Shown one piece after another: positions 54,881-58,919 of a DNA stretch of 64,000 nt. The notes beneath the pieces are model-generated. The model made no database searches. It was not told the origin of the DNA and worked only from the letters and a program-made list of their open reading frames with translations. Source of the DNA: Desulfuromonas sp. (GTDB lineage Bacteria; Desulfobacterota; Desulfuromonadia; Desulfuromonadales; Geothermobacteraceae); NCBI GenBank assembly GCA_002868905.1, contig PKUA01000018.1, positions 1 through 64,000 of the forward strand, written 5' to 3'. Within the stretch, counting starts at the first letter, position 1, and every line of letters starts with the position of its first letter. A program made the position numbers and the translations under genes.

Positions 54881-54987
54881 GGTCAACCTCGTGAGAAGGA
54901 TTGGAAAAGCTGCTCATTATCGCGGATGGGAAAAGCATCGTCAAGGCAGCAAAACATGACGGTGAACAGACTAAACCGCATATCCCT

Positions 54988-55015
54988 TTGCAAGATTAAT
55001 CCTTTTAAGTATAGT
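54988..55015 (+). promoter_or_regulatory. promoter of the MXAN_5187_C-patatin-radical SAM operon
   Basis: TTGCAA (54988-54993), 16 nt, TATAGT (55010-55015). Transcription should start near 55022, 17 nt before ATG 55039. Confidence 0.65.
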
Positions 55016-55038: not shown

Positions 55039-55581
55039 ATGGATAATAGAAACGATCATGAAAAACTTCTCGCCAAACTCGAAAACGAGCTGAAACAGCT
55101 CCAGATCAAATATGAGCAGTACTTTGCCGGGGTGGAAAAAAGGGAACCGGTCAAGGACAGAGAACTGATCGGACGACTGTTGCGGAAAATGGCGACCCGT
55201 CACATCACCCAGACCGATGTCCGTTTCCGCTTCCAGAACCTTGCCACCCGCTTCCACAGTTACAACGGCTACTGGGAGCGTGTCCTGCGCCTGATGGATG
55301 AAGGTCGTTACCATCGAGGCGGCACTCCTCCTCCGTCGGCACCGTCAGCCGCCACTGCGCCGAAGGGCTCCCCGGTCGACACCATTTACGACAACCTGGT
55401 CAAGGCCCACACCGATTGCGGTCTCGCCGGCAAACCTCCGGAGAAAGGTCAGGTCGAGAAATTTCTTGCCAGCCAACGACAGAAAATCCGGGAAAAGTTC
55501 GGGGATAAACAGGTCGACTTTTTCGTGGTGACCGAGAATGGTCGCCCCAAAATCAAAGCCCGCGCCAAAAAAGGGGGCTGA
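55039..55581 (+). CDS. MXAN_5187_C-like protein
   Basis: A 180-residue soluble protein. The N-terminal half (LENELKQLQIKYEQYFAGVEKREP, then RFRFQNLATRFHSYNGYWERVLRLMDEG) resembles the MXAN_5187 C-terminal domain family of deltaproteobacteria, rich in charged helices. A Pro/Ala linker (about 98-113) leads to a C-terminal basic region (VEKFLASQRQKIREKFG...KIKARAKKGG). No catalytic motif is visible. ATG 55039 has GGGGAC upstream. The patatin gene starts 2 nt after its stop, implying coupled expression. Function unknown. Confidence 0.75.
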   Translation: MDNRNDHEKLLAKLENELKQLQIKYEQYFAGVEKREPVKDRELIGRLLRKMATRHITQTDVRFRFQNLATRFHSYNGYWERVLRLMDEGRYHRGGTPPPSAPSAATAPKGSPVDTIYDNLVKAHTDCGLAGKPPEKGQVEKFLASQRQKIREKFGDKQVDFFVVTENGRPKIKARAKKGG

Positions 55582-55583
55582 TT

Positions 55584-56741
55584 TTGTTTCCCAGCCTCCG
55601 GCATCGCGGTAAAACAGCCCTGGTGCTCGCCGGTGGCGGGATCATGGGCGCCGCCTACGAAATCGGCTCCCTGACCGCCCTCGACCAGATGTTCGGCGAT
55701 GACTTCTCCGTCAACCAATTCGACATGTTCGTCGGTACCAGCGCCGGTTCTGTCATCGCCTCGCTGATGGCAAACCAGATCAAATCGGCCGACCTGTTCA
55801 GGGCGGTCGACCTTGACGAGCAGAACGTCTTCAACTGGCGCCGGCGCGATATCTACCGCTTCGAGGTCGGTCAACTCTGCAGCGCCTGGTGGCGGATGAC
55901 CCGTAACCTGTGGCGCATCGTGGGCAGTTACCGGCAGCGTCGCTCCAGTTTCTCCTGGCAGGACCTGAGCTATCTGTTCCAGGAGCAGTTTCCCGCCGGC
56001 CTCTTCTCCCTCAACCCGATGCAGGACTATCTCCGCCGCGCCTTCCAGGAAGCCGGGATTGCAGATGACTTCAGCCAGTTGGAACGGGAACTCTACATCC
56101 CGGCCTACGACCTTGACCGGGGAGAGCGGGTGGTCTTCGGCAGCGAGGATTTCCGCGACGTTCATATCTGCCAGGCGATCACCGCATCGAGCGCGATCCC
56201 GTTCTTTTTCCGCCCGCACCGGGTCGGCGGACGCTATTACATCGACGGCAACACCGGCCGGATTTCACATATCGATGTCGCCATTGAGCGCGGCGCCAAG
56301 CTGATCGTCCTGGTCAATCCGCGCGTCCCGATGCACAACGACCCGGAACGTTCCTGCCTGCCGTCACTCTCTTACGGGCACTGTGCCAGCATCGCCGAAC
56401 TCGGCATCGGGGTTGCCTGGGAACAGGCCCAGCGGATCGAAAATCATGAAAAACTGCAGATGGCTCTGGCCAATTACGCCTTGCTGCATCCCGACGTGGA
56501 AATCCTGATCATCGAACCCGGCTTGGACAAGTCCCTGCTGTTCTTTCAGAGCCCGATGAGCCAGGCAGCCCGCAACCACATCATGCATTACGGCTACCAC
56601 CTCACTCTCGGTCATCTGCGAGCGGAGTATGGGAAGTTCGCAAAGCCGTTTCGACGCTTCGGCATCGACACCAGTGACCAGCGGTTGCAGGACATGTTCC
56701 CCGAGCGGGAACAGCCGCCCCTGCCTGGAGAAGAGACATGA
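55584..56741 (+). CDS. patatin-like phospholipase
   Basis: A 385-residue predicted lipid acyl hydrolase of the patatin family. The catalytic pair is visible: oxyanion-hole run GGGIMG near 17-22, nucleophile GTSAG with Ser53, and the Asp-Gly of YYIDGNTG near 220. No signal peptide is present, so it acts in the cytoplasm or at the inner membrane. Start is TTG 55584, just after the previous stop, with AAGGGGG upstream. The stop overlaps the next gene's start by 4 nt, so all three genes form a coupled operon. Confidence 0.88.
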   Translation: MFPSLRHRGKTALVLAGGGIMGAAYEIGSLTALDQMFGDDFSVNQFDMFVGTSAGSVIASLMANQIKSADLFRAVDLDEQNVFNWRRRDIYRFEVGQLCSAWWRMTRNLWRIVGSYRQRRSSFSWQDLSYLFQEQFPAGLFSLNPMQDYLRRAFQEAGIADDFSQLERELYIPAYDLDRGERVVFGSEDFRDVHICQAITASSAIPFFFRPHRVGGRYYIDGNTGRISHIDVAIERGAKLIVLVNPRVPMHNDPERSCLPSLSYGHCASIAELGIGVAWEQAQRIENHEKLQMALANYALLHPDVEILIIEPGLDKSLLFFQSPMSQAARNHIMHYGYHLTLGHLRAEYGKFAKPFRRFGIDTSDQRLQDMFPEREQPPLPGEET

Positions 56742-58636
56742 AACGGCTCTCGACCGTCATTGCCACCCTGCACCTGCGGCGCAGCCGCCAGGCGGTCTCT
56801 CTGGCGGCCGGCAACCTGAAGGCGGCGCTCCCACCGGCACAGCAGGAAAACTGCCAACTTTGCGACCTGTTCCCGGAGATGTCGCTTGAAACCATGGCCG
56901 AACGGTTGCTTGCCGGCGACCCCGACCTGGTCGCATTACCGCTCTACCTCTGGAACCGGGCAACCCTTTTCGATCTGGCCCGGCGACTGAAGCAGATCCG
57001 GCCACAACTGCTGCTGGCTACCGGTGGCCCGGAGGCATCACCTCAGGCCGAAGCGATTCTGCAATCGGCCCCGTTCGATTTCCTGGTGCGGGGAGAGGGG
57101 GAAATAACCTTCTGCCAATTGCTGCGGGTCATTGCAGAGGGGGGGGCTTTTCAAGAGATCGACGGCCTCAGCCATCGACAACAGGGAGAGATCGTTCACA
57201 ACCCGGACCGCCCCGTTTGTGACGATCCGGGCATTTTCCCCTCCCCGTGGCTGCAGCAGGTCCTGACACCGCTTCCCAACGGAGGTGTCCTGTGGGAGAC
57301 CGCGCGGGGCTGCACGTTCGGTTGTGATTTCTGCTTTGATTCCGGCGGCCATCATCATGTTCGTCCCTTCCCGGAAAACCGGCTCAAAGCCGAGTTGGAA
57401 CTGTTCCACCAAAACCGGGTCGGAGAAGTCTGGGTCCTCGACGCAACCTTCAACTACCCCCCCGAAAGAGGAAAACGACTGCTCCGCCTGATCAGGGAGA
57501 TTGCGCCCGACATCCAGTTCCACCTCGAGGCGAAAGCCGATTATCTCGATCGGGAGACCGCAGCCCTGCTCGCATCGATCCCCTGCTCACTGCAACTCGG
57601 CCTGCAATCGGCCGATTCGGCGGTGTTGCGTGGAGTTCATCGCCGTTTCGATGTTGAGCGGTTCGAACAAGCTATTAACCTGCTTAACAGCGAGGGGGTG
57701 ACGTTCGGCCTCGACCTGATCTACGGCCTGCCGGGGGATGACTACCAGGGATTTGTCAACAGCCTTGAATTCGCGCTGGCCGGGCTGCCGAACCATATCG
57801 ATATCTTTCCGCTTGCCATCCTGCCTGGAACCCGCCTGGCGACCAGGACTCGTGAGTTGGGGATTCAGCACCACACCGACCCGCCATATACCATCGAGGC
57901 AACACCGACCATGCCGGCTGAGGAGCTGAAACAGTGCCGCGATCTCGCCAGCGCGGTCGACCTTTTCTACAACACCGGTCGCGCGGTCGGTTTTCTGCAT
58001 CCTCTGCTCGACACCCTCGCCTTGAGCGCCGAACAATTTTTCGAACATTTTGCCGCCTGGCTGCTGCAAACCCAGGGGATCTACCCGGACGTACTGCATG
58101 CGACCGAATCCTGGTCCGCCATCGAGATCCTGCCGATGCAGGAGGGTTTCGTTCAGCACGAACTGCTGCGACAGAACAGGATCGACCTGCTCCCGGCAGG
58201 CCTCGACCTGATACGTTTTCATTTCCATCACGCCGAAACGGGGCTGGGGGAAGAGACGTTACCGCCGGTAAGCGGTGAAGAGCTGTCGGAGGATGAACTG
58301 TGGCACACGGCCTGGCACCTCACCACCGGCGTACGCCTGGTGCCGTTCCATTATGAAATCGTCGACCTGCTTGAGATGGAGGGGGCAGACCTGGAAAGTT
58401 GCGCCACCTTGCTCCGCCCGGTCGGATCAACAGCCATTTTCCTGCGCCGGGCAGGAGAGGTGATCTTTGAATCCCTGAATGATGACATGGCTCGCCTGCT
58501 GACCGGGTGTCGCGGGGGACAAACCCCGGAACAGATCTTTTCGGGAAGCATCTCCGCAGCCGAAGGGAGTGAGCTGGTCTTCTGGGCCGCCAGCGAAGGT
58601 CTGATTCAGGCGACCTCGTCAAAGCGCTTGCGATAG
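56738..58636 (+). CDS. B12-binding radical SAM protein
   Basis: A 632-residue enzyme with an N-terminal cobalamin-binding-type domain (about 1-140), a radical SAM domain with CTFGCDFC (C192, C196, C199), and a long C-terminal region that resembles the DUF4080 group. The N-domain lacks an obvious DxHxxG, as in many class B family members that bind B12 base-off without the His. Substrate is unknown; relatives include methyltransferases and ring-modifying enzymes acting on lipids or natural products. It begins inside the patatin stop (ATGA overlap). Its 3' end overlaps the convergent thioredoxin-like gene by 31 nt. Confidence 0.85.
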   Translation: MKRLSTVIATLHLRRSRQAVSLAAGNLKAALPPAQQENCQLCDLFPEMSLETMAERLLAGDPDLVALPLYLWNRATLFDLARRLKQIRPQLLLATGGPEASPQAEAILQSAPFDFLVRGEGEITFCQLLRVIAEGGAFQEIDGLSHRQQGEIVHNPDRPVCDDPGIFPSPWLQQVLTPLPNGGVLWETARGCTFGCDFCFDSGGHHHVRPFPENRLKAELELFHQNRVGEVWVLDATFNYPPERGKRLLRLIREIAPDIQFHLEAKADYLDRETAALLASIPCSLQLGLQSADSAVLRGVHRRFDVERFEQAINLLNSEGVTFGLDLIYGLPGDDYQGFVNSLEFALAGLPNHIDIFPLAILPGTRLATRTRELGIQHHTDPPYTIEATPTMPAEELKQCRDLASAVDLFYNTGRAVGFLHPLLDTLALSAEQFFEHFAAWLLQTQGIYPDVLHATESWSAIEILPMQEGFVQHELLRQNRIDLLPAGLDLIRFHFHHAETGLGEETLPPVSGEELSEDELWHTAWHLTTGVRLVPFHYEIVDLLEMEGADLESCATLLRPVGSTAIFLRRAGEVIFESLNDDMARLLTGCRGGQTPEQIFSGSISAAEGSELVFWAASEGLIQATSSKRLR

Positions 58637-58881
58637 CGCGGGCGCTCACGAATCATATTGCGAATTTCAAGCGGGTCAGGGACACGTCCGCAAACCCGCA
58701 AGTTGTCATCCACCACCAGGGCGGGAGAGAGGTAGGCGCGGTGATCGATCATTTTGCGCTTGTCCCTGAAAACGTGGACTTCCGCCTCGATCGCCAGGTC
58801 CATTAAAGCTTCCCGCACGTTTTCCAAGGTCTGTTGACAGCGACCGTTTCCGTCTGGTTTACAAAGGATATCGATACGCAT
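58606..58881 (-). CDS. small thioredoxin-fold protein
   Basis: A 91-residue protein with an N-terminal beta strand followed by CKPDGNGRC (C7, C15), a widely spaced Cys pair, and SPALVVDDNLRVCGRVPDPLEIRNMI, with the cis-Pro position of a thioredoxin fold (SPALVV). It resembles small thioredoxin-like (thioredoxin_3) redox proteins, but the two Cys are seven residues apart rather than two, so classic CxxC chemistry is unlikely. ATG 58881 follows GAGGG. A promoter with consensus TATAAT lies upstream. Confidence 0.75.
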   Translation of the reverse strand: MRIDILCKPDGNGRCQQTLENVREALMDLAIEAEVHVFRDKRKMIDHRAYLSPALVVDDNLRVCGRVPDPLEIRNMIRERPRYRKRFDEVA

Positions 58882-58919
58882 AATGCCCTCACTTGGCAAT
58901 TGATGATCTTTTTGGTCTT

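Follow-up and report, generated by a model that had tools for sequence, protein, structure and literature searches.

An MXAN_5187_C protein, a patatin and a CysS/TokK-like radical SAM enzyme are encoded by a conserved operon of Desulfuromonadales

A 64,000-nucleotide stretch of DNA from Desulfuromonas sp. (assembly GCA_002868905.1, contig PKUA01000018.1, positions 1 to 64,000 of the forward strand; hereafter the window) contains three consecutive genes encoding, in order, a small protein with an MXAN_5187_C domain, a patatin-like putative acyl hydrolase and a cobalamin-dependent radical S-adenosylmethionine (SAM) enzyme. Our analysis leads us to conclude that these genes are a vertically inherited, conserved operon of the order Desulfuromonadales; that a C-methylase of the CysS/TokK type, acting on another substrate, is very probably what the radical SAM gene encodes; and that either enzyme can be lost separately in relatives. 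The explanation of the whole that we favor, while giving it slightly less than an even chance, is that methylase and MXAN_5187_C protein form the core of the operon, that the patatin is optional, and that the substrate is an acyl group held on pantetheine.

The genes are tightly packed on the forward strand (Table 1). Only 2 nucleotides separate the stop codon of the MXAN_5187_C gene from the TTG start of the patatin gene, and the patatin stop codon shares 4 nucleotides (ATGA, 56738-56741) with the ATG of the radical SAM gene. A pattern scan found a sigma-70-type promoter, TTTGCA-N17-TATAGT, whose 3' end is 23 bases ahead of the first start codon. An alignment of six relatives that represent different lineages shows no variation in the TATAGT hexamer and very little in TTTGCA. 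When the 110 bases preceding the MXAN_5187_C gene were scanned in 60 relatives, TT[GT]NCA-N15-19-TATA[AG]T was present in 38, compared with 0.44% of random 110-base segments of the same contigs. The original prediction had placed the operon behind one promoter, and this site and its conservation back that claim; the prediction was also correct in its coordinates, strands, spacing and overlap, and in the three families it named (NF041621; PF01734; PF02310 with PF04055 and PF13311). No Rfam family, cobalamin riboswitches included, was found at the operon locus.

We then turn to conservation, which was surveyed in 118 genomes of the order, representing 21 families and 51 genera; genes within 6 kb of each other were counted as together. 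A close ortholog of the radical SAM gene is present in 104 of these genomes, the MXAN_5187_C domain in 107 (almost always as a single copy) and a close relative of the patatin in 56. The MXAN_5187_C and radical SAM genes are together in 81 of the 100 genomes holding both. For MXAN_5187_C and patatin the figure is 52 of 54, the remaining two having the genes on separate contigs, and all three genes are together in 45 genomes belonging to many families. Strand and order are conserved, with spacings from small overlaps up to about 290 nucleotides, and named loci of a second collection have the same arrangement. This grouping is well beyond chance. Pure accident is also disfavored because the radical SAM tree has the pair of MXAN_5187_C and radical SAM genes in each of its two deep clades. 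Joint absence of these two genes (odds ratio 25) was not used as evidence, since several of the genomes without either gene are incomplete and adjacent genes vanish together in gaps. Random co-occurrence of the three genes in related genomes would have counted against the original prediction; the set is instead conserved there. The prediction had also known of no described system with this set, and literature searches on MXAN_5187, on DUF4080, on patatin with radical SAM and operon, and on Geobacter with patatin returned no description of the trio. As side observations, one genome (G093) carries two separate MXAN_5187_C-radical SAM pairs, on contigs C50 and C39, with enzymes 44% and 40% identical to that of the window, and a contig labeled as a Chloroflexi metagenome-assembled genome (L053) has Desulfuromonadales gene order and is probably mis-binned.

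The radical SAM enzyme can be placed with most precision. The B12-binding domain PF02310 and the Radical_SAM domain PF04055 score over their cut-offs in 62 of 62 relatives, in which Cys192, Cys196 and Cys199 are invariant, and this assigns the protein to the cobalamin-dependent radical SAM enzymes of class 1, in which a radical SAM domain with CxxxCxxC comes after an N-terminal B12-binding Rossmann domain; the start of DUF4080 (PF13311) is also recognizable. The solved proteins closest to a profile of these relatives are TokK (154 bits, 4e-44) and CysS (123 bits, 2e-34). The predicted structure, with a mean predicted local distance difference test score (pLDDT) of 94.4, has as its top fold matches CysS (9n1d; E = 1.5e-31, 671 columns) and TokK (7kdx), in each case along nearly the whole chain. 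With CysS, the cystobactamid B12 radical SAM methylase (PDB 9n1b/9n1c/9n1d), the enzyme shares the domain order cobalamin, radical SAM, C-terminal domain; CysS is the best fold match (template-modeling score 0.67), but identity in the fold alignment is 17% and the gene of the operon enzyme is not part of a natural-product cluster. TokK, the carbapenem B12 radical SAM methylase (PDB 7kdx/7kdy), is the best PDB sequence match and has in common the LWE-RGC stretch ahead of the iron-sulfur cysteines. That match, however, ends at about residue 376, the remainder aligning by fold only, and there are no carbapenem genes near the operon. The original prediction had described a long, uncharacterized C-terminal region. 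This region is not wholly without precedent, because its predicted fold aligns with the CysS and TokK crystal structures nearly full length, and the alignment suggests a C-terminal domain that would close the substrate cavity as it does in those enzymes. Among NCBIfam families, the best match is KedN5 (NF033712, E = 8e-43); we rejected membership in it, the score of 146.6 bits falling short of the 700-bit cut-off.

A further hallmark concerns the cobalt. Enzymes of the CysS/TokK type have a tryptophan below it, in the loop after strand 3. Trp75 of CysS and Trp76 of TokK are located under it (PMC12846815, PMC13331322), and Trp72 of the operon enzyme, which aligns with both, is invariant in the 62 relatives. 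The DxHxxG His-ligand motif is absent in 74 relatives. It is the combination of sequence, predicted fold and this tryptophan that makes a C-methylase of the CysS/TokK type very probable.

By analogy with its known relatives, the enzyme would transfer a methyl group. One SAM would methylate cob(I)alamin, and a second would give rise to a 5'-deoxyadenosyl radical that abstracts hydrogen at an unactivated acyl carbon, the acyl group being attached to the pantetheine of acyl carrier protein or of coenzyme A (CoA); the carbon so activated would then be methylated. The patatin, whose gene stands between the core genes in about half of the genomes, might be an optional accessory that cleaves an acyl ester or thioester, and the MXAN_5187_C protein might be a non-enzymatic adaptor or regulator. 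Both of these roles are guesses, as is the acyl-pantetheine substrate. The substrates of CysS and TokK carry pantetheine (PMC12846815; PDB titles), and a carrier-protein gene (PF00550) lies 3' of the radical SAM gene in a single subclade of the radical SAM family, one of Geobacter type. Together, these two points lead us to favor, as the likeliest single candidate though still an unproven guess, an acyl group bound to a carrier or to CoA. At one locus the carrier-protein gene is 103 nucleotides from the radical SAM gene (L110:11982-12218; PF00550 confirmed), and at two others it stands one gene further away (L086:12782-13018, PF00550 confirmed; L100:12832-13089).

Several observations weigh against this explanation. 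In CysS, Trp188, Trp271 and Ser273 are contacts to the aminobenzoyl group of the substrate (PMC12846815). The corresponding columns are Gly183, His262 and Glu264 in the operon enzyme, the last two being invariant in the 62 relatives; the CysS contacts are not kept, and the substrate would therefore differ from that of CysS. The carrier-protein neighbor occurs in one subclade only. Where the radical SAM gene lies away from the operon, its neighbors are mixed and unrelated, so that the context does not point to a pathway. Finally, the surroundings of the operon are conserved too. In the window, a divergent glmU is followed by glmS and a CLC channel gene on the 5' side; among relatives, uvrD, CLC, glmS and glmU are kept on one side and a PilZ-GAF response regulator, a thioredoxin-like gene, clpB and hsp20 on the other. 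Because gene order is stable throughout the region, adjacency speaks for common transcription more than for a common pathway, and with glmU, glmS and clpB equally conserved it is by itself a weak sign of joint function. The thioredoxin-like gene (PF13192), a conserved neighbor in many relatives, is small and convergent in the window (58609-58899) and shares 28 bases with the 3' end of the radical SAM gene.

The conserved flanks also favor an alternative in which the three genes are neighbors by inheritance only. The MXAN_5187_C gene would mark an old glmU-glmS locus, downstream of which first the radical SAM gene and then the patatin gene would have arrived, the three sharing a promoter but doing separate jobs. 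Indeed, the MXAN_5187_C protein is found without either enzyme in other Desulfobacterota, and at loci outside the order (L141-L171) its gene often adjoins glmU or has ATP synthase genes on one side and glmU on the other. This placement suggests an old fixed position in the atp-glmU-glmS region. Moreover, the radical SAM ortholog is apart from the MXAN_5187_C gene in 19 genomes holding both. On the other hand, the two genes are adjacent in both deep clades with strand, spacing and promoter kept, and the patatin gene is hardly ever away from the MXAN_5187_C gene. We regard inheritance without shared function as possible, if somewhat unlikely. The distribution of the MXAN_5187_C protein and the separability of the parts imply an old locus in which this protein is the constant element and to which the enzymes were added. 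The original prediction had called it a family-specific helper, which undersells a protein that occurs elsewhere in the phylum with neither enzyme.

The MXAN_5187_C protein matches NF041621 at 44.7 bits, over a cut-off of 30. It is basic and is predicted to consist of an N-terminal three-helix region, a low-confidence, disordered linker (residues 96-108) and a C-terminal alpha-alpha-beta-beta domain (mean pLDDT 88.9; predicted template-modeling score 0.53). Compared with the PDB, the predicted fold has no significant match (best E = 0.82) and neither does the sequence, a hit to ribosomal protein uS15 at E = 0.17 being judged chance. The papers searched contain no functional description of MXAN_5187_C domain proteins.

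The patatin belongs to PF01734 (100 bits, cut-off 27.7). The glycine-rich oxyanion stretch G17-G19, Ser53 and Asp221 are invariant in 20 aligned relatives, and the Ser53 named by the original prediction is real, lying in a GTSAG motif. Relatives have the same start position and 52-65% identity, and the 20 aligned proteins share a conserved C-terminal stretch of their own of about 150 residues. Inspection of the sequence revealed no apparent signal sequence at the N terminus. These features are those of a cytosolic-looking putative acyl hydrolase with an intact dyad. PlpD and CapV, patatin-like phospholipases, are its solved relatives. PlpD, which has the same patatin core, carries an outer-membrane barrel. 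The operon patatin (E = 2e-12 to PlpD, PDB 5fqu) has no such barrel; it also has the patatin core in common with CapV (PDB 8zr9), a weak match at 5e-5, but lacks a cyclic-nucleotide system. Outside the order, patatin relatives are found in mixed gene neighborhoods, and one distant relative (L196:5518-7179) adjoins a gene for a regulator of polyhydroxybutyrate/polyhydroxyalkanoate accumulation (PF07879), a possible hint at polyester granules.

Table 1. Positions of the operon's features in the window
Feature	Position	Strand	Basis
Sigma-70-type promoter of the operon	54987-55015	+	TTTGCA-N17-TATAGT, pattern scan
MXAN_5187_C protein, 180 residues, isoelectric point 9.9	55039-55581	+	NF041621, predicted structure
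MXAN_5187_C domain, residues 113-176	55375-55566	+	NF041621 match
Patatin-like putative acyl hydrolase, 385 residues, TTG start	55584-56741	+	PF01734
Codon of putative nucleophile Ser53 (GTSAG)	55740-55742	+	sequence; invariant in relatives
Codon of Asp221, putative catalytic dyad (DGN)	56244-56246	+	sequence; D221-G222 invariant
Cobalamin-dependent radical SAM enzyme, 632 residues, CysS/TokK-like	56738-58636	+	PF02310, PF04055, PF13311; profile; fold
Codon of Trp72, counterpart of CysS Trp75 / TokK Trp76	56951-56953	+	profile alignment
4Fe-4S motif C192xxxC196xxC199	57311-57334	+	sequence; invariant in 62 relatives
Codons of His262 and Glu264, at CysS Trp271/Ser273 positions	57521-57529	+	profile alignment; invariant in 62 relatives

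From the proximity of the two enzymes, the original prediction had suggested that they modify or remodel a lipid, and one form of this idea is that an acyl chain freed from a membrane lipid by the patatin is then methylated, with help from the MXAN_5187_C protein. The operon is real, its set of genes is conserved in many families, and the predicted character of the patatin as an acyl hydrolase is consistent with the idea. Joint action on one lipid fares worse. The MXAN_5187_C-radical SAM pair is together without a close patatin in 35 of the surveyed genomes. At one locus (L073:1025-1443), a patatin remnant with in-frame stops and up to 59% identity to a neighbor's patatin lies between MXAN_5187_C and radical SAM genes that are both intact, and a comparable fragment, interrupted by two stops, is present in another genome (G116). 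In the radical SAM tree, the trio and pair states are interspersed, with 7-8 changes, as repeated loss would give. Conversely, three genomes of one genus (G012, G063 and G080) keep the MXAN_5187_C and patatin genes without a close radical SAM ortholog, and the map of locus L177 agrees. Nor are there other lipid enzymes in the operon neighborhood. Since each enzyme can be lost without the other, joint remodeling of one lipid by both is not established, and we consider it unlikely.

More speculatively, the MXAN_5187_C protein could be the dedicated hub adaptor of a modular system. Its partner would vary among lineages and be a carrier-acyl C-methylase, a product-releasing or product-editing patatin, or both enzymes, and the product would be a branched acyl compound characteristic of Desulfuromonadales; this extension seems to us doubtful. 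Very unlikely is a peptide-modifying enzyme like those of ribosomally synthesized and post-translationally modified peptides (RiPPs), with a C-terminal recognition domain and the MXAN_5187_C protein as its substrate or carrier. The last 100 or so residues of the radical SAM enzyme do have a hairpin-helices pattern reminiscent of PqqD-like domains, and the MXAN_5187_C gene is always first in the operon. However, the PqqD profile matches none of 30 C-terminal fragments at E up to 5, the fold of the enzyme follows CysS and TokK along nearly its entire length, and the MXAN_5187_C protein is a folded protein of 180 residues with a wider distribution than the enzyme's. For want of profile support we rejected a PqqD-like domain, or RiPP recognition element, at this C terminus; a precursor peptide was not searched for in detail. 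An anti-phage module that joins a phospholipase effector patatin, like that of cyclic-oligonucleotide-based antiphage signaling systems (CBASS), to a radical SAM enzyme of a candidate defense family is suggested by PADLOC matches to phospholipase effectors (66 bits) and to candidate PDC-M51A (158 bits, resembling general family similarity), but with 57.7 bits against a cut-off of 200 for the CBASS phospholipase NF041079, no cyclase or cyclic-nucleotide synthase in the operon neighborhood, and a near-universal, single-locus, vertically inherited place between core genes that is unlike patchy defense islands, we rejected it on position and inheritance as extremely improbable.

Overall, these data leave the conserved operon with a CysS/TokK-type methylase and an MXAN_5187_C protein at its core as our preferred explanation. 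The MXAN_5187_C protein is spread across the phylum, yet neither a described function nor a significant fold match turned up for it. What sequence and predicted fold indicate to be a B12 radical methylase is conserved through nearly the whole of an order of metal-reducing and anaerobic bacteria, and it therefore probably has a housekeeping role, in contrast to its structurally known relatives CysS and TokK, which make antibiotics. His262 and Glu264 offer a concrete handle on what its substrate may be.

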